DNA of 64,000 nt from Selenomonas timonae (GTDB lineage: Bacteria > Bacillota > Negativicutes > Selenomonadales > Selenomonadaceae), in contig NZ_CP060204.1 of the NCBI RefSeq assembly GCF_014250475.1, positions 819,001-883,000 of the forward strand, given 5' to 3'. Below, piece after piece: positions 44,923 to 54,919 of the stretch (position 1 is its first letter; each line of letters starts with the position of its first letter). The notes below the pieces were generated by a model. It ran no database searches, was not told where the DNA came from, and worked only from the letters and a program-made list of their open reading frames with translations. Made by a program: the position numbers and the translations under genes.

Positions 44923-46165
44923 AGAAGCCGGTGTTTTCAAACACCGGCTTCTGGCGTAAAATATGAGTATGCAACAAATTTTACATAAGGATTATACATC
45001 CTACGGAGGCACATTTCAACCCAGTCTCCCCCTCAACTTTGAATTTCAAATCAAGAAGGACGATCCCGTTCGCCTCCTGCTCCACTGCATCCATCAAATG
45101 GATCTTACGCCCCTGTACAGGAACTTTAGGCGTGCCGAGCGGAATCTCGTATCACCGCATCAGCTGCTTGCCATCCTCATCTACGCATACATGAATCAAA
45201 TCTACAGTTCCCGCCGCATTGAGGAGGTATGCCTAAGGGACATCCACTTCATGTATCTGCTCGAAGGGCACCCCGCACCGGATCACGCAACCATTGCCCG
45301 TTTTCGCAGGGATCACTTTGCCCCCTGCGCCAAGGAGATTCTGGCACAAATGGCACAATTTCTCGCATCCGTTGGAGCCATCTCATTTGCAATATGGCGT
45401 GGAGGCATCCTTTATCGTATGGGCAGGTGTTTACCCGAACCCGACAGATACACGGACACTTATCCCGTTTTTGGAGGATTTTCATGCACACATCGGAAAA
45501 AGGAGCCAGAAACTCGTCGCCGATGCAGGATATGAGAGTGAGGAGAACTACCTGTATTTGAGGGAAAAGGGACAGACCTCCTACATCAAGCCGAACAACT
45601 ACGAAGTGAGCAAGAAGCGCAAATGGAAGCAGGACATCGGGCGGCGGGAGAACATGAAGTACCTTGCGGCGGAGGATGTCTACCAGTGCGCCGAGGGGCG
45701 GCGACTCGTTGTGACGGGGACGCGCAGGACAAAGAGTGCGAGCGGGTATGTGAGCGAAAAGACCATCTACACGTGTACCGACTGCAATGGCTGCGAAAGA
45801 AAGAAGCAGTGCATCCATGGCAACCACAGCAAGATACCAATGGAGGAACGAACCAAGAGATTGGAGGTTGCCAAGGTCTTTCAACGAGAGCGTGCAAAGA
45901 ACCTTGCACGGATCAAGAGCACGGAAGGAATCGTCCTGCGGATGAACCGCAGCATCCAGGCAGAGGGTGTCTTTGCACAGATCAAGGGAGCCTTTGGATT
46001 TCGCCGTTTTCTTACGAGAGGGCGTGCGAATGTCTTGGGTGAGACGATTCTGCTGGCACTGGCACACAACGTCTTCAAACTGCATCAAAAGATACAGAGC
46101 GGCACGTTGGAGCGGCATCTGGTATCATTGAGAGAAGCTGCATAAGAAGACGTCGGAAAGAAACC
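44923..46165 (+). mobile_element. Remnant of an IS1182-type insertion sequence
   Basis: Contains a broken transposase gene (44963-46145), preceded by a 12-bp hairpin AGAAGCCGGTGT/ACACCGGCTTCT (44923-44952) of the kind that blocks read-in transcription into IS elements. Element ends could not be fixed by eye, so the boundaries are approximate. It separates the rfbGH genes from the yibE/F-metal ATPase block. Confidence 0.6.
44963..46145 (+). pseudogene. IS1182-family transposase, frameshifted and internally deleted
   Basis: The N-terminal half (to ~45385, frame 2) carries the IS1182 start: LTPLYRNFRRAERNLVSPHQ and HATIARFRRDHF. The C-terminal half (from ~45385, frame 3) carries YPNPTDTRTLIPFLE, the second catalytic Asp VADAGYES, a Cys-rich CTDCNGCERKKQC and the Glu motif IQAEGVFAQIKG. 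Between them the DGTK-type first catalytic Asp segment and roughly 100 residues are missing, and the frame changes at the junction. The enzyme should be inactive. Confidence 0.85.
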
Positions 46166-46290: not shown

Positions 46291-47409
46291 TTATTTCCTC
46301 CGTGGTCGAATGGTGATGAGGAAGGCGGTGGCATAGGCGGTGATGGGGATGGCGCAGAGGAGGCCGATGCTGCCGATGAGGGAGCGGACAACCTCGGTAG
46401 CGATCATGTTGAGGTTCATGATGTGCAGGAGAGAGATGTCGGGCTGTGCGGAGATGAGGAGGATGAGGGGGAGTGCGCCGCCGATGTACGCGAGGACGAG
46501 AGTGTTCGCCATCGTGCCCATGACATCGCGTCCGACGTTCAGCCCTGAGGAGACGAGTGTCTGAAACTTCGTTTTGGGGGCGAGCAGCTTCATCTCGTAC
46601 TGCGCAGAGGCGATGGAGACGGCGACATCCATGACAGCGCCGAGCGCGCCGAGGACGATGCCCGAGAAGAGTAGTTCGCGGAAGTCCACGTCCTTCAGAT
46701 AGAGTGCCTTGAGCATGCCCGCCTGTTCCTCGGAGACACCCGTGAGATAGGTAAAGTGGATGGCGAGGACGGCGAGGAGTCCTGCAACGAGGATGCCGCC
46801 GATGGTACCGATGATGGCGCCTGCGGACTTCACGTTGCGCCCGTTCACGATGAGCTGGGTTGCAAGCGTGATGACGGCACCGATGAGGATTGTCCAGAGC
46901 AGGATATGTGACGGTGCAAAGAGGATGAACGCAATGAGTCCCTTTGCAATGAGGAGAACGGCAAAGAGGAGGACAAGGAGCGCCTTGAGTCCCGTCATTC
47001 CGCCGAAGAGGATGAGGAGTGCAGCAAAGCCGAGGAGGAGGAAAAGCATGGCAGGCAGGCGGTCATAGTCGACGATGGCGTAGGTGTCGTTCTCATCGCG
47101 GACGATGATGTTATCGCCCTCCTGTGGGTGGATGTCGAAGGCCGGATTGTTCAGTGTGCGATGTGTGATCGTCGCCTCTGTCCCCTCGGCAGAGCCAGAG
47201 TCGATGCGGAGCTGCACCTCGTACTGCAGGCTGCCGGGGGCGAACTCCTTGATCTCGTTTTCCGTCTCTGTGACGCTGAGCACCTCCGCCTTGTAGGTGG
47301 GCGGGTCGCCGTCCTCTCCGCCCGGCAGGTGGAAGAGGGCATAGAGAAGTACGAGGATGGCTATGCAGACAGCGAGGAAACGCGCGAAGCGCTGCGGATG
47401 GATTTTCAT
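46291..47409 (-). CDS. YibE/F family membrane protein
   Basis: 372-aa protein. An N-terminal TM anchor (about residues 10-26) is followed by an extracytoplasmic beta-rich domain (40-120) and then seven or so TM helices from residue ~118 (MLFLLLGFAALLILFGGMTG) to the end. Characteristic strings include HRTLNNPAFDI and GALGAVMDVAVSIASAQYEM. Molecular function is unknown in this family. SD GAGGTG before the ATG. Divergent from the metal-ATPase cluster; the shared upstream region has a Fur-box-like sequence. Confidence 0.87.
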   Translation of the reverse strand: MKIHPQRFARFLAVCIAILVLLYALFHLPGGEDGDPPTYKAEVLSVTETENEIKEFAPGSLQYEVQLRIDSGSAEGTEATITHRTLNNPAFDIHPQEGDNIIVRDENDTYAIVDYDRLPAMLFLLLGFAALLILFGGMTGLKALLVLLFAVLLIAKGLIAFILFAPSHILLWTILIGAVITLATQLIVNGRNVKSAGAIIGTIGGILVAGLLAVLAIHFTYLTGVSEEQAGMLKALYLKDVDFRELLFSGIVLGALGAVMDVAVSIASAQYEMKLLAPKTKFQTLVSSGLNVGRDVMGTMANTLVLAYIGGALPLILLISAQPDISLLHIMNLNMIATEVVRSLIGSIGLLCAIPITAYATAFLITIRPRRK

Positions 47410-47469
47410 AAGGGCACCTCTTCATGGAATATTGAGATGATTGAGACGACTGAGATTATCATACATGCT

Positions 47470-47488
47470 GATAATGATATTTATATTA
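47470..47488. promoter_or_regulatory. Fur-box-like palindrome between yibE/F and the metal ATPase cluster
   Basis: GATAATGATATTTATATTA matches the classical Fur 19-mer at about 14 positions and lies within a wider partial palindrome CATGCT...AGCATG (47464-47493). Position suits control of either divergent transcript. Assignment is tentative. Confidence 0.35.
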
Positions 47489-47527
47489 GCATGAAGGCAA
47501 TACTTATTCCTGATTACGTCGGAAGTA

Positions 47528-47556
47528 TTGACAACACTGGTATTCTCACATATACT
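47528..47556 (+). promoter_or_regulatory. Promoter of the metal ATPase cluster
   Basis: Perfect TTGACA (47528-47533), 17-nt spacer, TATACT (47551-47556). The predicted leader to 47734 is ~170 nt, with a GCCCC/GGGGC hairpin before the SD and an unsupported 26-codon frame (47570-47650). Confidence 0.75.
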
Positions 47557-47733
47557 GAGAACAACAAGATGATTCCGGAGACGGAGCGGGCACGCATGCT
47601 GCCAAGGCTCTGCGGCGCAGGAATTGTCAACGATGCGGATGTTCTGTAACGTTGCATCGTTCACTCAGTTCTGAGGCAAGGCGCCGCGTTCGATTATGCC
47701 CCAATGGGGCGCTATACATAAGGAGGAGTTATC

Positions 47734-47934
47734 ATGTTCTCGAAGACAGATTTCTGGATTGGCCTTGCAGTCGGTGCGGTGGCGGGTATCTTTGGCTACC
47801 GTTTTATGCAGGAGCGTACGCAGCAGCTTGCGGCACTCGAGGCAGGACAGGCGGATCTCTCGCTGGCAGAGCTTCAGCGTCAGAAGGAGGAGCTTGAGGA
47901 TCTGATTGCGGCGCAGTCTGCATCGGAGCAGTAA
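47734..47934 (+). CDS. Small single-TM, coiled-coil protein (YtxH-like shape)
   Basis: 66-aa protein with one TM segment (about residues 7-23, FWIGLAVGAVAGIFGYRF) and a Glu/Gln-rich helix afterwards. Excellent SD (AAGGAGGAG). No family recognised. Its position as first gene of the HMA2/P-type ATPase cluster suggests an accessory or membrane-scaffold role. An attenuator-like hairpin follows. Confidence 0.75.
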   Translation: MFSKTDFWIGLAVGAVAGIFGYRFMQERTQQLAALEAGQADLSLAELQRQKEELEDLIAAQSASEQ

Positions 47935-47950
47935 GAGTTCCATAGGTCAC

Positions 47951-47988
47951 GGGGCTGCCGCGCATTTGCGCGCAGCCTTTTTTTCTAA
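47951..47988 (+). terminator. Attenuator-like hairpin inside the metal ATPase cluster
   Basis: GGCTGCCGCGC / GCGCGCAGCC hairpin followed by T7, between the small protein gene and the first HMA2 gene; readthrough is needed to express the pump unless another promoter exists. Confidence 0.75.
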
Positions 47989-48013
47989 AAGAAAGAGAGG
48001 AAGCAATCTTCCC

Positions 48014-48325
48014 ATGAATATTTTCGATACGATCAAGAACGCGATTCCGCAGTCGGCGATGGATGTCTTCGTGCGTACGACGGATATTGCATCCTATATG
48101 CCGGGGCGTGTGCGTCTCTACAGCAAGCAGCTCGTGAACAACGCTGCACTCGAGGCGCAGGTGCAGGCGCATCTCAGCGCGCTCGCGGAGATTGAGCGCG
48201 TGGAGACGAATATTGCGACGGGCTCGATCCTCATCACATATGAGCCAGAGCGTCTGCGTGCAAATGCGGAGCTTCGGCGCGTCGAGAACTATATGCGCAC
48301 GCATGCGAAGAGGAGGGCATCATGA
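48014..48325 (+). CDS. HMA2-type domain protein without CxxC
   Basis: 103-aa protein. About residues 33-95 (PGRVRLYSKQL ... IATGSILITYEP) fit the ferredoxin-like HMA_2 domain, which lacks the metal-binding CxxC of true HMA domains; no Cys is present at all. The start is ATG 48014 (an upstream AGAGAGGAAG is the plausible SD). Its stop overlaps the next start by four bases (ATGA), so translation is coupled to the second HMA2 protein. Confidence 0.8.
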   Translation: MNIFDTIKNAIPQSAMDVFVRTTDIASYMPGRVRLYSKQLVNNAALEAQVQAHLSALAEIERVETNIATGSILITYEPERLRANAELRRVENYMRTHAKRRAS

Positions 48326-49080
48326 ACTATGTTTCGGGATTGATGCTTGGCGCATCTATTGCGAATATGCTGCGGCAGACACTCAGCGGTACGGGCGATA
48401 TGAATGCGATGCAGGGCATGCGCGGCGGGCGCGGGCGCATGATGCCGGGCGGACAGTCCGCCGCCTTTCCCTCGATGACGGGAAGTCTTGCGGGCAGTGC
48501 TTCCGCGCTGACGGGGCTCTTTGGGGGCTCCGGGCGGACGGGCGGTCTTGCGGGGCTTCTGCCGTCTGCGGGGACAGCTGAATCCTCTGCTGCCGCTGCG
48601 CATCAGGGTCGGACTTCCTCGGAGCTGCCCTTCATCTGCGTGCATGCATCGCCTGGACGTCGCCGCTATCGGACGCCGTATCTGACGCCGGAGTTTGCAC
48701 AGGTGCTCGAGGAGTGCCTCGTGCGTCTCCCGTTCGTGACGCGGGTGCGCGCAAATGCGGTTGCAGGAAGTATATTGCTCACCTATATGCCCGAGGATGA
48801 GGCACATATCCTCGTGCTCGCAGAGGGGCTGGAGGAGATCTTCTCCGAGGGGCGTACGGCTCCGCCGCCCGCGACGCTTGCGCAGAGTGTGCGCCGTTCG
48901 GTACATGATTTTAGCGGATGGATTCAGAGGCATACGGGCGGGGCACTCGATCTCAGCTCGGTGGTTGCGGGCGTGTTCGTTCTGCGCGGCATTCGCCAGC
49001 TCGTGTTGTCGAATAATACGCCGTCGGGCTCGCAGATGCTCTGGTGGGCGCTGACGCTGATGAGAGGGTGGCGGGTATGA
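48322..49080 (+). CDS. Gly/Ala/Ser-rich protein with HMA2-type domain
   Basis: 252-aa protein: a low-complexity N-terminal ~95 residues rich in Gly/Met/Ser (MRGGRGRMMPGGQS), an HMA2-like region about 100-165 (CVHASPGRRRYRT ... AVAGSILLTYMPED), and a C-terminal hydrophobic patch near 215-230 (VVAGVFVLRGIRQLVL). It overlaps the ATPase start (ATGA at 49077), giving a tight four-gene translational unit. Function unknown; a dedicated partner of the pump is inferred from coupling. Confidence 0.78.
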   Translation: MNYVSGLMLGASIANMLRQTLSGTGDMNAMQGMRGGRGRMMPGGQSAAFPSMTGSLAGSASALTGLFGGSGRTGGLAGLLPSAGTAESSAAAAHQGRTSSELPFICVHASPGRRRYRTPYLTPEFAQVLEECLVRLPFVTRVRANAVAGSILLTYMPEDEAHILVLAEGLEEIFSEGRTAPPPATLAQSVRRSVHDFSGWIQRHTGGALDLSSVVAGVFVLRGIRQLVLSNNTPSGSQMLWWALTLMRGWRV

Positions 49081-51191
49081 CGAAGCTCGTACATACGCGC
49101 ATCCGTCTGCGTGGGGAGCTGCCGCGCGCAGACGCCCTCCAGCTTGCGGCGCGGCTGCGCCGCTTCCCTGCCGTGACGGCGGCATCGGTACGCGACGGCG
49201 CGGTAGAACTCTGGCACGAGGGACAGATTCCCGCTGCGCGCATTCTTGGCGTCGCGGAGCGTGCCGTGCGTGAGGCGGCAGAGAAGACGGTGACACCGAC
49301 GGAGCAGATGGCGGAGTTTCGCCGCGATGCCGTGATCTCGCTTGCGAGTTTTGCGGCGATGGAGCTGCTGCGGCGCGGCGCACCCGAGCTCTTTGCCTCG
49401 CTCAAGGTTCTGCGGTCTCTGCTCGTGCTCGGTATTTCGCGCAATTTCATCAAGACCGGCATTGGAGGTCTGCTCAAAGACCGCCAGCCGAATGCGGATA
49501 CGCTGACCACGACGGCGGTCATCGCCTCCGTACTTGCGGGCAAGCCCGAGTCGAGTCTCATGCTGCTCGCGCTCAGCAACGGCGCGGAAATGCTGACGAG
49601 CTATGCGGCGGAGAAAGCGCGCACGCATATCTCGGGGCTGCTCTCGCTCGGACAGCGCGATGTCTGGCTGGTTGAAGAGACGGCGGACGGCGAGGTTGAG
49701 CGGAAGGTGCCTGTGGAGGAGGTGCGCCCCGGCGATACGATCGCCGTGCACGCGGGTGAGAAGATTGTGATCGACGGGCGTGTGCTGCGCGGCGATGCGG
49801 CGGTGACGCAGGCGTCGATTACGGGCGAATCCGCGCCCGCGATGAAGCACGAGGGCGCGCCAGTCTACGCGGGCAGCGTGGTCGAGGCGGGTGAGCTCGT
49901 CGTCAAGGTGGAGAAGGTGGGCGGCGATACGTCGCTCGCGCATATCGTTCACCTCGTCGAGGAGGCGCAGATGCGCCGTGCGCCCGTGCAGAATTTTGCC
50001 GACCAGATGGCGAACTATCTCGTGCCCGTGTCCTTCCTCGGCGCGGCGATTGTCTACGGGGCAACGCGCGACTGGGGGCGGGTGCTGAATCTGCTCTTTA
50101 TCGACTTTTCCTGCGGTCTGAAACTCTCCACGGCGACGGCTATGTCGGCGTCGATCGCTGCGGCTGCAAAGCGCGGCATTCTCGTCAAGGGCGGCAACTA
50201 CATCGAGGCGCTTGCACGCACGGATACGGTTGTGCTCGACAAGACGGGAACGCTGACGGTCGGCGTGCCGGAGATCACGTTCATCCGCACGGCAGCAGGT
50301 GTGACGGAGAAGGAGGTCATTCTCCTCGCGGCGTCGGCGGAGGAGCACTCAGTGCATCCGCTCGCGGTGGCAATCCAGAAATATGTAGAGGAGAAGGAGT
50401 GGGTAACGCCGCAGCATCGCTCCTCAAAGACCATTGTGGCGCGCGGCATGCTTGCCGAGGTGCCCGATTTCGAGGGGTATACGGGCGGAACGGTGCGCGT
50501 CGGCAGCCGCCGCTTCCTCCAAGAGAATGGAATCACGGACGAGGAGGAGCTTGGTGCCCAGGTCGTCGGCAAGAATCTCCTCTACGTGGCGCGTGATGCG
50601 CAGCTCATCGGCATCATCGGCATCGAGGATCCCATTCGGCCGAAGATGAAGAAGACGCTGAATCAGCTGCGCCGCTGCGGCGTGGATGAGATCGTCATGC
50701 TGACGGGTGATGCGAAGGCGGTCGCGGCAGATGTCGCGCGCGAGATGGATGTGGACTCCTATCACGCGGAGATCCTGCCCGAGGACAAGTCGCGCTATGT
50801 CAATGAACTGCGCCAGCGCGGCACGGTGATGATGGTCGGCGACGGGATCAACGATGCACCTGCGCTCGCGTTTGCGGATGTGGGCGTCTCGCTCGGCGGA
50901 CGTCAGACGGACATTGCAGCGGAGTCCTCGGCGGTGACGATCCACGCGGAGGATCCCACGCGCCTCGTGGAGGCGCTGCGTCTCGGACAGCGGACGATGC
51001 ACCTTGTGCACCAGAATTTCAAGGCAACGCTGCTCATCAACTCGTCGGCGATGCTGCTCGGCGCACTCGGCTCGATCAGTCCGCTCGCGGCAGCGGCGAT
51101 CCACAACACGGCGACACTCGGCGTCGTGCTGAACAGCTGTCGCATCCTGACACCCGAGGGCGGCATTTTCGCACGGCGCACACGGCCATGA
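49077..51191 (+). CDS. P1B-type cation-transporting ATPase with atypical membrane metal motif
   Basis: 704-aa pump. An N-terminal HMA2-like ~75 residues without CxxC is followed by TM helices, actuator loop TGES (~250), the transmembrane motif FSCGLKLSTATA (~343) in place of the usual CPC, phosphorylation site DKTGTLT (~386), P-domain TGDAK and GDGINDAPALA (~587), and final TM helices. The core catalytic cycle is intact. The S-C-G variant of CPx makes metal specificity unclear. Last gene of the cluster, co-translated with two HMA2 proteins. Confidence 0.9.
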   Translation: MTKLVHTRIRLRGELPRADALQLAARLRRFPAVTAASVRDGAVELWHEGQIPAARILGVAERAVREAAEKTVTPTEQMAEFRRDAVISLASFAAMELLRRGAPELFASLKVLRSLLVLGISRNFIKTGIGGLLKDRQPNADTLTTTAVIASVLAGKPESSLMLLALSNGAEMLTSYAAEKARTHISGLLSLGQRDVWLVEETADGEVERKVPVEEVRPGDTIAVHAGEKIVIDGRVLRGDAAVTQASITGESAPAMKHEGAPVYAGSVVEAGELVVKVEKVGGDTSLAHIVHLVEEAQMRRAPVQNFADQMANYLVPVSFLGAAIVYGATRDWGRVLNLLFIDFSCGLKLSTATAMSASIAAAAKRGILVKGGNYIEALARTDTVVLDKTGTLTVGVPEITFIRTAAGVTEKEVILLAASAEEHSVHPLAVAIQKYVEEKEWVTPQHRSSKTIVARGMLAEVPDFEGYTGGTVRVGSRRFLQENGITDEEELGAQVVGKNLLYVARDAQLIGIIGIEDPIRPKMKKTLNQLRRCGVDEIVMLTGDAKAVAADVAREMDVDSYHAEILPEDKSRYVNELRQRGTVMMVGDGINDAPALAFADVGVSLGGRQTDIAAESSAVTIHAEDPTRLVEALRLGQRTMHLVHQNFKATLLINSSAMLLGALGSISPLAAAAIHNTATLGVVLNSCRILTPEGGIFARRTRP

Positions 51192-51250: not shown

Positions 51251-51325
51251 ACGAGGGAATGAAATGAAAAGATAGTTTCGGATCACGCATCTACCGATCC
51301 GCTATTTGGGAGGAGAGTTTTGTCA

Positions 51326-51745
51326 ATGGCAGGAAAGATGAAGAACTGCTCAAGCTGCGGGAAGGTATTTGTTTCGATCAACAATGCTCGTATCTGCGTG
51401 GATTGCCGCGAGAAGGAAGAGCAGTGGGAGAAGCAGATCGTAGAGTATGTGCGTGATCATCCGAAGAGCCAGATCCCCGAGATCGTCGAGGCGACGGGGG
51501 TCCAGGAGCCGGTGATCCGCCGCATGATTCGCGAGGGGCGCTTTATCTCCTCCGATGTCCAGCTCTTCTATCCGTGTGACAAATGCGGCTCGCCGATCCA
51601 GAAGGGGCAGTACTGCGACAAGTGTCAGAAGGAGATGCGCGAGGAGCTGACGGCGGCTGTTGCAAAGAAGTCCGCCTCGGGCATGCGCACGACTTCGGAC
51701 GGCTCCGGCGGACGGCGCGGCTATGTGACGCTCGGTGATAAATAA
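51326..51745 (+). CDS. yvyF: Flagellar operon zinc-ribbon protein (YvyF/TIGR03826 family)
   Basis: 139-aa protein with two treble-clef zinc knuckles, CSSCGK...CVDC (N-terminal) and CDKCG...CDKC (around residue 90), flanking a small helical wHTH-like segment (VEATGVQEPVIRRMIREG). This architecture matches the flagellar-operon YvyF proteins that precede flgM in Firmicutes. ATG 51326 with GGAGGAGAG upstream. A terminator separates it from flgM. Confidence 0.87.
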   Translation: MAGKMKNCSSCGKVFVSINNARICVDCREKEEQWEKQIVEYVRDHPKSQIPEIVEATGVQEPVIRRMIREGRFISSDVQLFYPCDKCGSPIQKGQYCDKCQKEMREELTAAVAKKSASGMRTTSDGSGGRRGYVTLGDK

Positions 51746-51762
51746 AAACTCAAGAACGCGTG

Positions 51763-51800
51763 CTTAGGAAAAATTTCTTAAGTACGCGTCTTTTTTTTTC
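51763..51800 (+). terminator. yvyF terminator
   Basis: ACGCGTGCTTAGG / CTTAAGTACGCGT imperfect hairpin followed by T9. Confidence 0.85.
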
Positions 51801-51802
51801 GA

Positions 51803-51828
51803 TAAAGAATGTGAAAGGACTCCGACCC
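51803..51828 (+). promoter_or_regulatory. Possible sigma-28 promoter for flgM
   Basis: TAAA (51803-51806), 15-nt spacer, CCGACCC (51822-51828), against sigma-D consensus TAAA-N15-CCGATAT. The -10 half is imperfect. Confidence 0.4.
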
Positions 51829-51872
51829 TTTTTCGGAGGGTATATCGGAGCAATACATAGGTGGTGAAGAAT

Positions 51873-52142
51873 ATGTTGATCAGCAATCATGCAGTTGCGG
51901 CTGTGAGCCGTCTCTATGCGGGCAGCCAGTCGACAGGAACGCGCCGTGTGGATGCAGTCAGCGCCGTACAGCGTCCCGATGCACTCGAACTCTCAGGCGA
52001 GGTGCAGAGCTTTGGCGATATCCTGCAAAAACTGCGGGGCATGGACGACGTCCGCACGGAGCGCGTGGAGGCGCTCGCGGCACGCACACAGGAGCCTGCA
52101 TCCTCGGATATTGCAGCGAAGATGCTCGCAATGCGCTACTGA
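51873..52142 (+). CDS. flgM: Negative regulator of flagellin synthesis (anti-sigma-28 factor)
   Basis: 89-aa FlgM: it holds sigma-28 inactive until exported through the completed hook. Family features are the N-terminal IS-NHAVAAVSRLY, central PDALELSGEVQSF and the C-terminal sigma-binding helices with ERVEALAARTQE ... DIAAKML. ATG 51873 with AGGTGG upstream; GTG 51861 is an alternative. Followed by the chaperone genes, as in Bacillus flgM-flgN-flgK. Confidence 0.87.
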   Translation: MLISNHAVAAVSRLYAGSQSTGTRRVDAVSAVQRPDALELSGEVQSFGDILQKLRGMDDVRTERVEALAARTQEPASSDIAAKMLAMRY

Positions 52143-52156
52143 TATGGGGCGCACTC

Positions 52157-52645
52157 ATGTGGAATGTATTTACGACAACCCTTGAGGAATTATATCGTCA
52201 GTATGAGAAGATCCGTGCTCTGCAGGAGAAGAAGCGCGGCGTTCTTGTTGCGCTCGATATGGCAGCACTCGAGAAGCTGACCGCCGAAGAGGATTTTCTT
52301 GCAAAGGCCGTGCAACAGCTCGAAAAGCAGCGCCTGACGCAGCTTGCACAGATCGCACAGGTGACGCCCGGTGTCAGTGCCGAGACGAATATGGAGGAGC
52401 TGGCACTCCTCGCGCCGACGGATGCGGCTCACCGCTCCGTGCTCGCCGCGAGCCGAAATCTCAGCCGCATCGTCAAGGAGACGGCGGAGCGCAGCGAGGC
52501 GAATTCCCTCCTGATCGAGGGGGCGCTCATCGCGGTAAACCGCCAGCTTGGCAAAATCGGTGGCGCTGTTGTCGATCCCGTCTATGGAAACACGGGCGGC
52601 GAGCAGGTGCGGCATCTGAAGAAGAATCTGGACTATAAGGCGTGA
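52157..52645 (+). CDS. flgN: FlgN-family flagellar export chaperone
   Basis: 162-aa predominantly helical protein with heptad-rich N-terminal coiled coil (LEELYRQYEKIRALQEKKRGVL). It fits FlgN, the cytosolic chaperone for FlgK and FlgL. ATG 52157, 14 bp after flgM; order flgM-flgN-x-flgK-flgL supports it. Confidence 0.82.
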   Translation: MWNVFTTTLEELYRQYEKIRALQEKKRGVLVALDMAALEKLTAEEDFLAKAVQQLEKQRLTQLAQIAQVTPGVSAETNMEELALLAPTDAAHRSVLAASRNLSRIVKETAERSEANSLLIEGALIAVNRQLGKIGGAVVDPVYGNTGGEQVRHLKKNLDYKA

Positions 52646-52651
52646 ACGGCG

Positions 52652-53143
52652 ATGACGAATGAAACCCGTGAGGCGCTTGTGCTCCTGAAGGCACAGCTCG
52701 CTGCCTGCGAGGAGGCGGCACATCGCTTCGCCGCACTCAGCGATGCCCTCTGTCAGAGTGCATCGGGGGGCGGCGTTGCGGAGCCGACGGCGGCAGCGGA
52801 GCACAGCCTGACTGAGGTGCGGTCACTCGCACGCCGACAGTCGGACTTCCTTGCAAATACTGGCGCAGAAAGCCTTTCTGTTATCGTTTCGCGTGAGCCG
52901 AATCTACGTGAACGCCTCGCCGTCGAGCGTGTCCTGCGTGCCGTTGCAGCGCGTCAGGCAGAGCTGCGGGAGCGCATACAGATCTGCGCGGAGCTGCTGC
53001 AGAACAGCGCTGCGTTTGTGAACTATCAGCTCAACGTCATCTCCGGCACCGTTGCCGAGGATACCTACGGCAGATCGCAGCCCGTTGCGGGCCCTGCACC
53101 GGGTGTGAACCGTGCGGTTGCGATGTTTGATGCGGATGTATAA
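52652..53143 (+). CDS. Second FlgN-like helical protein
   Basis: 163-aa all-helical protein between flgN and flgK. Size, helical content and end region (LLQNSAAFVNYQLNVISGTV) resemble the preceding FlgN (LLIEGALIAVNRQLGKIGGAV), suggesting a diverged tandem duplicate. SD is weak. A dedicated chaperone for one of FlgK/FlgL is an inference; no direct family match is claimed. Confidence 0.7.
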   Translation: MTNETREALVLLKAQLAACEEAAHRFAALSDALCQSASGGGVAEPTAAAEHSLTEVRSLARRQSDFLANTGAESLSVIVSREPNLRERLAVERVLRAVAARQAELRERIQICAELLQNSAAFVNYQLNVISGTVAEDTYGRSQPVAGPAPGVNRAVAMFDADV

Positions 53144-53182
53144 AGAGTCAGAGATAAGAGTAGGGAAAGAGTGAGGGATCAT

Positions 53183-54919
53183 ATGCGGTCAACATTTGCC
53201 GGACTCAATACGATGGTGCGGGGCATACAGAACAATCAGCTCTCGCTCGATACCACCGGACACAACATCACGAATGCCTCGACGGAAGGGTACTCGCGTC
53301 AGCGCGTCGACTCGGCGGCGACGAACTATCAGGAGCGCCCGTCCCTCTATGGCGGGGTCTATGTCGGCGGCGGCGTGGATGTCGTGGCGCTGAACCGCGC
53401 GCGCAATATCTACGCGGATAAGCAGTTCTGGTCGGAGAACTCGGCGCAAAATCTCTATCAGACCTACAAGACGAACTATGACAAGGTGGAGACGATCTTC
53501 AATGACTCCAAGAAGACGGGTATCCTGAACGCGATGCAGCAGTTCTACTCCTCTTGGGTCAATCTGTCCGACTATGCAAGCGACGCGGCGTCGCGTACGG
53601 CGGTGATCACGAAGGGCAACAACCTCGTTGACCGCATCAAGACGAGTGCAAAGCAGCTGCAGGCACAGATCAATGCACAGTACGAAGAGACGCGCATTCA
53701 GGTCGGGAAGCTCAACGGGATCACGAAGGAGATTGCGCGCCTCAACAAGAATATCATGCTCGCCGAGACGAACGGCGGCAAGGCGAACGATCTGCGCGAC
53801 CAGCGCGACCTCCTCGTCGACAAGCTCTCTGAGATCACAAATGTCAATGTCTATGAAGAGGCAAATGGCCAGTATACCGTCGTCTCGAACGGCATGTCGC
53901 TCGTCCAGCGCGAGAATACGTTGACCGTCGAGATGAGTGAACCCATCTACAACCAGCAGTACGGCCTCTCGGACTACACCCTGCGCATCAAGGAGGCGGG
54001 CGGCATCGGCTATGTCCCGCAGAGCGGCATTTTAAAGGCGCTCTCGGATACGATCGTGCAGGACAAGGGGCATATCGACCAGCTTGCGGACATCTCCGCT
54101 GCACTGCTCACGACGTTCAACGACGTGCACAAGCTCGGGGCGGGCATCGACAACGATCCGACCACAGGCCCGACGACGTGGCTGAACTTCTTCGGACAGA
54201 ACAAGTTCACATCCCCAACAGGTACAACCTACGATCAGATGCAGTACACATGGCATGTCAATACGACGACGGGCGAGCGCTGGATGGAGGCGGCAGGATC
54301 TACAATCACGCGGACGGCTGCGGCAGGACCTCCCCCTGAGGTTACCGTAACAGCGACGGTCACAGGCGGACCGGACAAGCTCAAGTCCATGCAGATCATC
54401 AATGCGCTCAAGATCAGTGACGAGCTGACGGCGCAGGGCGGGCAGAACCTTGTTGCCGCGCGCCAGATTGCGGATGCAAACGGGACGAAGGTTGTGCCGA
54501 CAGCGCTGAGCGGCACGGGCGCGACTTACAAATACAAGGTCTCTGAGATCAACGGTACGGGCGACGGTACGATGGCGGTCGAGCTGAGCAAGCTCTTCAA
54601 CATCGATCTGGCAGGTGCGATGAATCCACGCGGTACGACGCGCGCGATCAGCGATATATCCATCAACCAGTACTACAACGGCATGATGAGCCAGCTTGGT
54701 GCAGATGCCGAGAATGTCGACAAGACGCTCAAGCAGCAGGATGATCTCATGACGCAGATCGAGCAGTGGCGTCAGTCCACGTCGGGGGTCGACTGGAACG
54801 AGGAGCTGACGAATATGCTCAAGTTCCAGACAGGTTACGGCGCATGTTCGCGCGTGCTCACGTCGATGGATGAGATGCTGGATCGGCTGATCAACAGCAC
54901 CGGTGTCGTCGGAAGGTAA
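53183..54919 (+). CDS. flgK: Flagellar hook-associated protein 1
   Basis: 578-aa hook-filament junction protein. The N-terminal flagellar rod/hook signature is STFAGLNTMVRGIQ followed by QLSLDTTGHNITNASTEGYSRQ, and the C-terminal D0 helix has NMLKFQTGYGACSRVLTSMDEMLD. The middle is the usual variable domain. ATG 53183 with GTGAGGG upstream; GTG 53171 would place the SD inside the gene. Confidence 0.95.
   Translation: MRSTFAGLNTMVRGIQNNQLSLDTTGHNITNASTEGYSRQRVDSAATNYQERPSLYGGVYVGGGVDVVALNRARNIYADKQFWSENSAQNLYQTYKTNYDKVETIFNDSKKTGILNAMQQFYSSWVNLSDYASDAASRTAVITKGNNLVDRIKTSAKQLQAQINAQYEETRIQVGKLNGITKEIARLNKNIMLAETNGGKANDLRDQRDLLVDKLSEITNVNVYEEANGQYTVVSNGMSLVQRENTLTVEMSEPIYNQQYGLSDYTLRIKEAGGIGYVPQSGILKALSDTIVQDKGHIDQLADISAALLTTFNDVHKLGAGIDNDPTTGPTTWLNFFGQNKFTSPTGTTYDQMQYTWHVNTTTGERWMEAAGSTITRTAAAGPPPEVTVTATVTGGPDKLKSMQIINALKISDELTAQGGQNLVAARQIADANGTKVVPTALSGTGATYKYKVSEINGTGDGTMAVELSKLFNIDLAGAMNPRGTTRAISDISINQYYNGMMSQLGADAENVDKTLKQQDDLMTQIEQWRQSTSGVDWNEELTNMLKFQTGYGACSRVLTSMDEMLDRLINSTGVVGR

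Follow-up and report, generated by a model that had tools for sequence, protein, structure and literature searches.

An operon with a non-canonical P1B ATPase

The genome of Selenomonas timonae (2.35 Mb in a single contig; RefSeq assembly GCF_014250475.1) carries an operon of four same-strand genes within the stretch of 64,000 nucleotides analysed here (positions 819,001 to 883,000 of contig NZ_CP060204.1), which we call the window. According to the list of open reading frames (ORFs) of the window the operon spans positions 47734-51191. It encodes a small transmembrane (TM) coiled-coil protein, two proteins with an HMA_2 domain (HMA2a and HMA2b) and a P1B ATPase, and 4-base overlaps join the last three genes (Table 1). 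ORFs and family models agree with the original prediction, drawn from the letters of the window, that four overlapping or closely spaced genes of these kinds lie here. That prediction began the set at 47464; there is no gene at this position, which belongs to the promoter region with its palindrome and sigma-70-like promoter.

Membership of the ATPase in the P1B family is clear from its score against TIGR01525 (513.1 bits; cut-off 346.25), and the catalytic motifs are in place: TGES at residue 249, DKTGT at 388, SVHPL at 425 and GDGIND (GDGxND) at 588. Pumps of the copper and zinc classes P1B-1 and P1B-2 have CPC in the fourth TM segment (TM4) and an N-terminal domain with CxxC. As the original prediction had noted, the window pump carries S-C-G in place of CPC, within D-F-S-C-G, and CxxC is absent from all four proteins, the N-domain of the ATPase included. 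The Gly/Met-rich arm ascribed to one of the HMA2 proteins is also there, with 21 Gly and 9 Met among the first 100 residues of HMA2b (gene 3). The TM protein has neither Cys nor His, and no Pfam or NCBIfam family matched it above cut-off.

Table 1. Features of the operon and its promoter region (window coordinates)
Feature	Position	Strand	Details
Fur-box-like palindrome ATTATCA-N7-TGATAAT (47455-47475)	47454..47479	.	pattern, alignment
Sigma-70-like promoter TTGACA-N17-TATACT	47528..47556	+	11/12 consensus matches
Gene 1, small TM + coiled-coil protein, 66 aa	47734..47934	+	FezA/PacL-like layout
Intrinsic-terminator-like hairpin, GC stem + T-run	47951..47984	+	dG -20.3
HMA2a, HMA_2 domain protein, PGRVR where CxxC expected	48014..48325	+	PF19991, 1.8e-14
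HMA2b, Gly/Met-rich arm, HMA_2 domain (PGRRR), C-terminal hydrophobic helices	48322..49080	+	PF19991, 1.5e-19
P1B ATPase, S-C-G branch, 704 aa, N-terminal RIRLR motif	49077..51191	+	TIGR01525, 1.1e-153
TM4 motif D-F-S-C-G, residues 343-347 of ATPase	50103..50117	+	
TM6 H-N motif, residue 676 of ATPase	51102..51107	+	described for P1B6 ATPases (PMC9374683)

The S-C-G motif marks a clade of pumps

Passages of Boudehen et al. 2022 (PMC9374683) describe an HN motif in TM6 of P1B6 ATPases and DUF6110 proteins as typically encoded beside P1B6 pumps. The window pump carries the first of these class features. The second, given as typical and not as obligatory, is missing from the operon, which encodes a protein of the same layout.

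Pumps were classed by their TM4 motif. We define the S-C-G type as D-[FY]-x-C-G; most members have S-C-G itself, those of Turicibacter and Priestia have I-C-G and two loci (L047 and L048) have A-C-G. From a scan of named genomes the best 80 of 588 loci were used; one (L123) was dropped because it has no DKTGT, and the remaining 79 comprise 17 of the S-C-G type, 20 of the S-C-A type and 42 CPx pumps. Among these best 80, the S-C-G loci include Megasphaera, S. ruminantium, Turicibacter, a Clostridium metagenome-assembled genome (MAG), Peptacetobacter and Succinivibrionaceae. Counted over rows that each represent a locus (some are repeats of one gene), the HN motif is present in 75 of 75 S-C-G rows, in 25 of 27 S-C-A rows and in 7 of the 60 rows that belong to neither type; those seven are CtpC-like.

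The phylogeny follows the motifs. A tree of 57 rows groups the S-C-G pumps at 100/99 and the S-C-A pumps at 100/100, and a MAG of Selenomonas ruminantium (L065) is the named row closest to the window pump in the pump tree. In a smaller tree of 35 rows, from which long-branch rows had been removed, the S-C-G, S-C-A, CtpC-like and CPx groups each appear at 100/99 or better; S-C-G and S-C-A join at 93/91, and together with the CtpC-like pumps they are split from CPx at 100/100. Across an alignment of eight rows the TM4 Asp and Cys are invariant, as is the TM6 His-Asn pair.

Because C-G and the catalytic motifs are retained across the clade, decay of the motif in a copper or zinc pump is ruled out. 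On the sequences compared, the S-C-G motif is the mark of a clade, and of a little-studied pump class, rather than of a broken copper or zinc pump. The original prediction was therefore right to place the pump outside the CPC pumps for these metals. It had also allowed for a non-metal cargo. The lack of both CxxC and CPC would be in keeping with this, but the residues invariant in TM4 and TM6, the conservation of the motif throughout the clade and the position of that clade among metal pumps, grouped with S-C-A, make it highly improbable. Placement in a defined class with a motif of known specificity was what the prediction named as able to overturn it, and this applies only by half: the class is described, but the searchable literature yielded no experimental metal specificity for the S-C-G branch.

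Of 121 genomes of the order that were searched, 73 have an orthologue with at least 58% identity, some of these orthologues being split or partial; the remaining genomes match other pumps only. A search of the phylum at 1e-110 gave matches in 22 of 398 genomes, CPC pumps among them. Members of the S-C-G clade come from Negativicutes, Clostridium/Peptacetobacter, Fusobacterium, Succinivibrionaceae and plasmids of Priestia. At 1e-90 the pump matches fourteen Priestia plasmid records and one Fusobacterium vincentii record, with D-F-I-C-G (Priestia) and D-Y-S-C-G (Fusobacterium) as the TM4 motifs of the two regions inspected. A tblastn search of plasmids with the small TM protein as query hit 14 records, every one from Priestia, and the five listed are all among the fourteen that bear the pump. 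On plasmid pBM400 of Priestia megaterium (L189, 3844-7670) a five-gene version of the module stands behind an IS256-like transposase gene.

HMA_2 genes and a small membrane protein accompany the pump

Partner genes were counted with profiles built here, at loci where 1400 bases or more flank the pump frame on either side, with known duplicates excluded. At least two HMA_2 genes and a small TM gene are present at 36 of 36 S-C-G loci, a count of which a minor part is circular because 11 proteins of the TM profile come from S-C-G loci. The S-C-A loci carry a DUF6110-type TM gene in all 14 cases and an HMA_2 gene in four, with at most one per locus. Neither an HMA_2 nor a TM gene occurs at any of the 39 CPx loci, a set that leaves out the CtpC-like loci because their flanks are short. 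Where a flank of 300 bases was accepted, two HMA_2 genes were found at 71 of 71 S-C-G loci and the TM gene at 68. Recurrence at every S-C-G locus with long flanks and at no CPx locus rules out chance co-location of the operon genes, and is the co-occurrence of accessory genes with this ATPase type that the original prediction had put forward as a check.

The order of the genes varies with lineage. At the Clostridium, Peptacetobacter, Turicibacter, Fusobacterium and Priestia loci inspected it is HMA_2, HMA_2, ATPase, HMA_2 (C-terminal type) and small TM gene; the Negativicutes loci inspected begin with the TM gene and have no HMA_2 gene after the pump. The DUF6110 model (PF19605) matched the partners of four S-C-A pumps, three of them above cut-off and the Desulfovibrio partner at 24.3 against 26.

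An R-x-R is invariant in 17 aligned stretches (16 HMA_2 proteins and the N-terminus of the window ATPase) and sits within PGRxR in ten of them. The structural model of HMA2a (predicted local distance difference test, pLDDT, 83.2) has the order beta-beta-alpha-beta-beta-alpha of a ferredoxin-like fold, the PGR turn joining strands one and two. A fold search with this model gave no match at E <= 0.001; a second comparison scored HMA domains and RNA polymerase L/K subunits alike, at Z of about 5 to 6.5, and the fold is therefore ferredoxin-like and not diagnostic. In the model of HMA2b the Gly/Met-rich arm has a pLDDT below 50 at residues 29-99, confidence is weak outside about 100-170, and the C-terminus is helical and hydrophobic. 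We infer that the arginine-rich R-x-R turn replaces the CxxC metal loop in these proteins. The suggestion that the HMA2 proteins are structural partners holds for the partnership, which is conserved; their role in it may be structural.

A conserved hairpin, promoter boxes and an iron-linked context

The original prediction placed an attenuator-like hairpin before the pump. The hairpin is real, but it is terminator-like and sits between genes 1 and 2. A consensus scan of the operon (4 kb) found three terminator-like sites where shuffles lead one to expect 2.5, so that support for the hairpin comes from its conservation and not from the single site. All 13 same-genus loci have an equivalent hairpin, its letters changed. 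Between the TM gene and HMA2a, a hairpin with four or more T behind it is present at 39 of 49 loci, compared to a mean of 10.15 and a maximum of 16 when the regions were shuffled 40 times. No Rfam family matched the operon at the gathering score, which rules out a known RNA element there.

Upstream of gene 1, a promoter of the sigma-70-like form recurs in all 13 same-genus regions and the palindrome arrangement was found by pattern in 7 of 13 promoters (window included in both counts); promoter-like sites in the region number three, against 1.2 expected. The best match to TGATAATNATTATCA scores 10.34 on average across 50 upstream regions, compared to 8.99 in shuffles. A Fur-box match reaches p<0.05 in 16 of these 50 promoters, the regions of related genomes not being independent. 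In 9 of 16 regions picked mainly for their boxes, the box overlaps a sigma-70-like -35 element, and it does so in part because TTGACA and TGATAA share letters. The genome encodes two FUR-family genes.

Among the best 80 of 588 loci a FeoB-type G1 motif occurs at 6 of 37 S-C-G and S-C-A loci and at none of the 42 CPx loci (one-sided Fisher test, about 0.008). By the promoter boxes, the FeoB-type neighbours and the analogy with the Fez systems considered below, the metal of the pump is likely to be iron. Such a context would suit a P1B6 pump that exports iron or another divalent metal through the cell membrane with neither organelle nor platform, and a lone P-type pump suffices for export. Three extra conserved genes, one of them separated off by a terminator-like hairpin, argue instead for a role in building a structure, and we regard efflux of this simple kind as distinctly unlikely.

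FeoA- and/or FeoB-like genes were recognized by eye and by the G1 motif near S-C-G and S-C-A pumps of Turicibacter, Peptacetobacter, Veillonella and Desulfovibrionaceae (L062, L071, L104 and L087); at the Peptacetobacter locus FeoA-, FeoB- and ZIP-like genes adjoin the module, the ORFs being judged by eye. In the genome of S. timonae FeoB_N matches at nine places, probably other GTPases. A ferritin-family match with an apparent internal stop looks by eye like a Dps-like gene whose stop is at its natural end.

Relation to ferrosomes and to efflux platforms

FezB belongs to the P1B-6 ATPases, and an arginine-rich motif is a feature of Fez proteins. In C. difficile the membrane protein FezA and the transporter FezB are required for ferrosomes and repressed by Fur (PMC12574912, where the passage on this species names FezA and FezB only); FezB is a putative ferrous iron transporter, and FezC of Desulfurispirillum indicum is reported to bind haem (PMC11334425). 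The ferrosome studies themselves, Pi et al. 2023 on C. difficile and Grant et al. 2022 on D. magneticus, are drawn on here by way of passages in these two articles.

Seven genomes of the Peptacetobacter family (G516-G522) were taken for Clostridioides, and six have a pump match at 1e-100. At one of these presumed Clostridioides loci (L182) a small TM protein of 131 aa stands beside an S-C-A pump of 699 aa. All six loci have a DUF6110-type frame beside the pump, by a profile that included the L182 protein, and no separate HMA_2 frame within about 1 to 1.5 kb of flank. The S-C-A branch presumably holds the FezA/FezB pair of Clostridioides. Like fezA/fezB, the window operon joins a small membrane protein to a P-type pump, with Fur-linked control as a prediction. 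It differs in that the presumed Clostridioides pair is of the S-C-A and DUF6110 kinds, whereas the window operon combines S-C-G with a TM protein that is not DUF6110 and with two HMA_2 proteins; the two small TM proteins share 17% identity and the same layout and belong to different families. With fezABC of D. magneticus the link is through S-C-A pumps of Desulfovibrionaceae, which have HMA_2-like and TM neighbours (ORFs by eye); the difference is FezC, a DUF4405-like cytochrome (PMC11334425), of which the window genes scanned include none. The P1B6/DUF6110 systems of Boudehen et al. share the TM6 HN motif and a small TM partner beside the pump, but in the window this partner falls outside PF19605, and the S-C-G loci counted have two or more HMA_2 genes where the S-C-A loci counted have one at most. 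A search of our literature library found no paper that connects ferrosomes with Selenomonas or with HMA2.

Given the gene set, the motif, the clade, the conserved promoter and the terminator-like hairpin, all of which can be read from the sequences, we lean towards reading the operon as a ferrosome-like iron-sequestration module, a variant of known machinery. The S-C-G ATPase, FezB-like, would pump a divalent metal across a membrane. Fe2+ is the most likely metal, and membrane vesicles that hold iron are the probable destination. The small TM/coiled-coil protein would be an abundant membrane scaffold: the terminator after gene 1 would end a share of the transcripts short of the pump genes and, to judge from its position, leave the TM protein in excess over the pump, which fits a scaffold. 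The HMA_2 proteins, with their R-x-R turn, may be structural or anion-binding subunits and not copper or zinc chaperones. Iron starvation would probably derepress the operon through Fur.

A number of observations weigh against a ferrosome-like module. No sequence feature links the pump to vesicles. The comparison with FezB is made with presumed Clostridioides pumps and has no named FezB reference; a search limited to the operon's four genes, a short ORF and two neighbouring genes found no FezC/DUF4405-like match; and PF19605 matches neither the window TM protein nor five other S-C-G partners. On the side of regulation, 34 of the 50 promoters have no significant Fur box, and in the window genus the palindrome lies about 50 bases upstream of the -35 element, with the operon to one side and a divergent yibE/F-like gene to the other, so that it may serve either. 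The association with FeoB is sparse and motif-based only, and FeoB_C has no match in the window genome. The remaining points concern CtpC, which is reported as a zinc (or manganese) exporter (PMC9374683). A grouping of S-C-G with the CtpC-like pumps is not rejected (p-AU, the approximately unbiased test, 0.201), and the support of 93/91 for the S-C-G/S-C-A tie is unstarred. The seven CtpC-like loci (L049, L050, L051, L052, L054, L055 and L056) encode CPC pumps with HN; at all seven an HMA_2 stretch lies inside the pump's own frame, at five there is another HMA_2 frame (on the opposite strand in two) and at two a DUF6110-type TM frame.

These traits of the CtpC-like loci mean that HMA_2 and small TM partners mark a wider P1B6 or P1B6-like group, of which the S-C-G set is one version, and CtpC-like CPC/HN pumps may form a link between efflux platforms and Fez-like modules. 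They also speak for a platform of the PacL/CtpC kind in the plasma membrane, where a small TM protein clusters the pump and Zn, Mn or Fe is exported against toxicity. The PacL1-CtpC zinc efflux platform of mycobacteria (PMC9374683) has the same layout of small TM protein and P1B6-like pump, and both the tree test and the HMA_2 stretches bring CtpC-like pumps close to those studied here. Yet CtpC and its kin keep CPC where the window pump has S-C-G, and the S-C-G-type TM protein is at none of the seven loci. The window TM protein, having no Cys or His, has no metal-binding tail, and Fur-type boxes predict induction under iron starvation, which is unsuited to an efflux pump. We consider a platform of this kind rather unlikely.

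We do not file the operon, which we prefer to read as ferrosome-like, under Fez proper, because its TM partner is not DUF6110, FezC is absent from the genes scanned, the tie to S-C-A is at 93/91 only and the Clostridioides Fez proteins compared are presumed ones. A bolder proposal, which we put forward tentatively and as the lesser expectation, is that the S-C-G pump, the R-x-R HMA_2 proteins and the non-DUF6110 scaffold constitute a second, separately organised lineage of iron-storage organelles, in which arginine-rich HMA_2 domains replace metal chaperones as coat or mineral-organising parts. Its range would be widespread in Negativicutes and extend to Fusobacterium, Clostridia and Priestia plasmids. 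If true, iron-storage compartments would reach a large group of anaerobes, many of them from rumen or gut according to record titles, and the plasmids of a harmless soil bacterium; HMA_2 (PF19991) proteins without CxxC would acquire a function; and P1B6 pumps could be sorted by a rule, S-C-G with two or more HMA_2 partners and S-C-A with DUF6110.

Neighbouring genes

On the minus strand at 46291-47409, divergent from the operon, lies the gene for the YibE/F-like membrane protein (PF07907). It is kept in 11 of 12 same-genus stretches and is unmatched at the loci fetched from other genera, many of which end shortly past the TM gene. Further out, at 44963-46145, ORFs of 190 and 283 aa overlap, each in its own frame, and look by eye like one transposase split by a frameshift. 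Directly downstream of the operon, 51320-54919 appears to be a flagellar region, with a YvyF-like gene that scores below the model cut-off and a long FlgK-like ORF recognized by eye; the YvyF-like gene falls inside the fetched stretch at 13 other same-genus loci and at two further loci.

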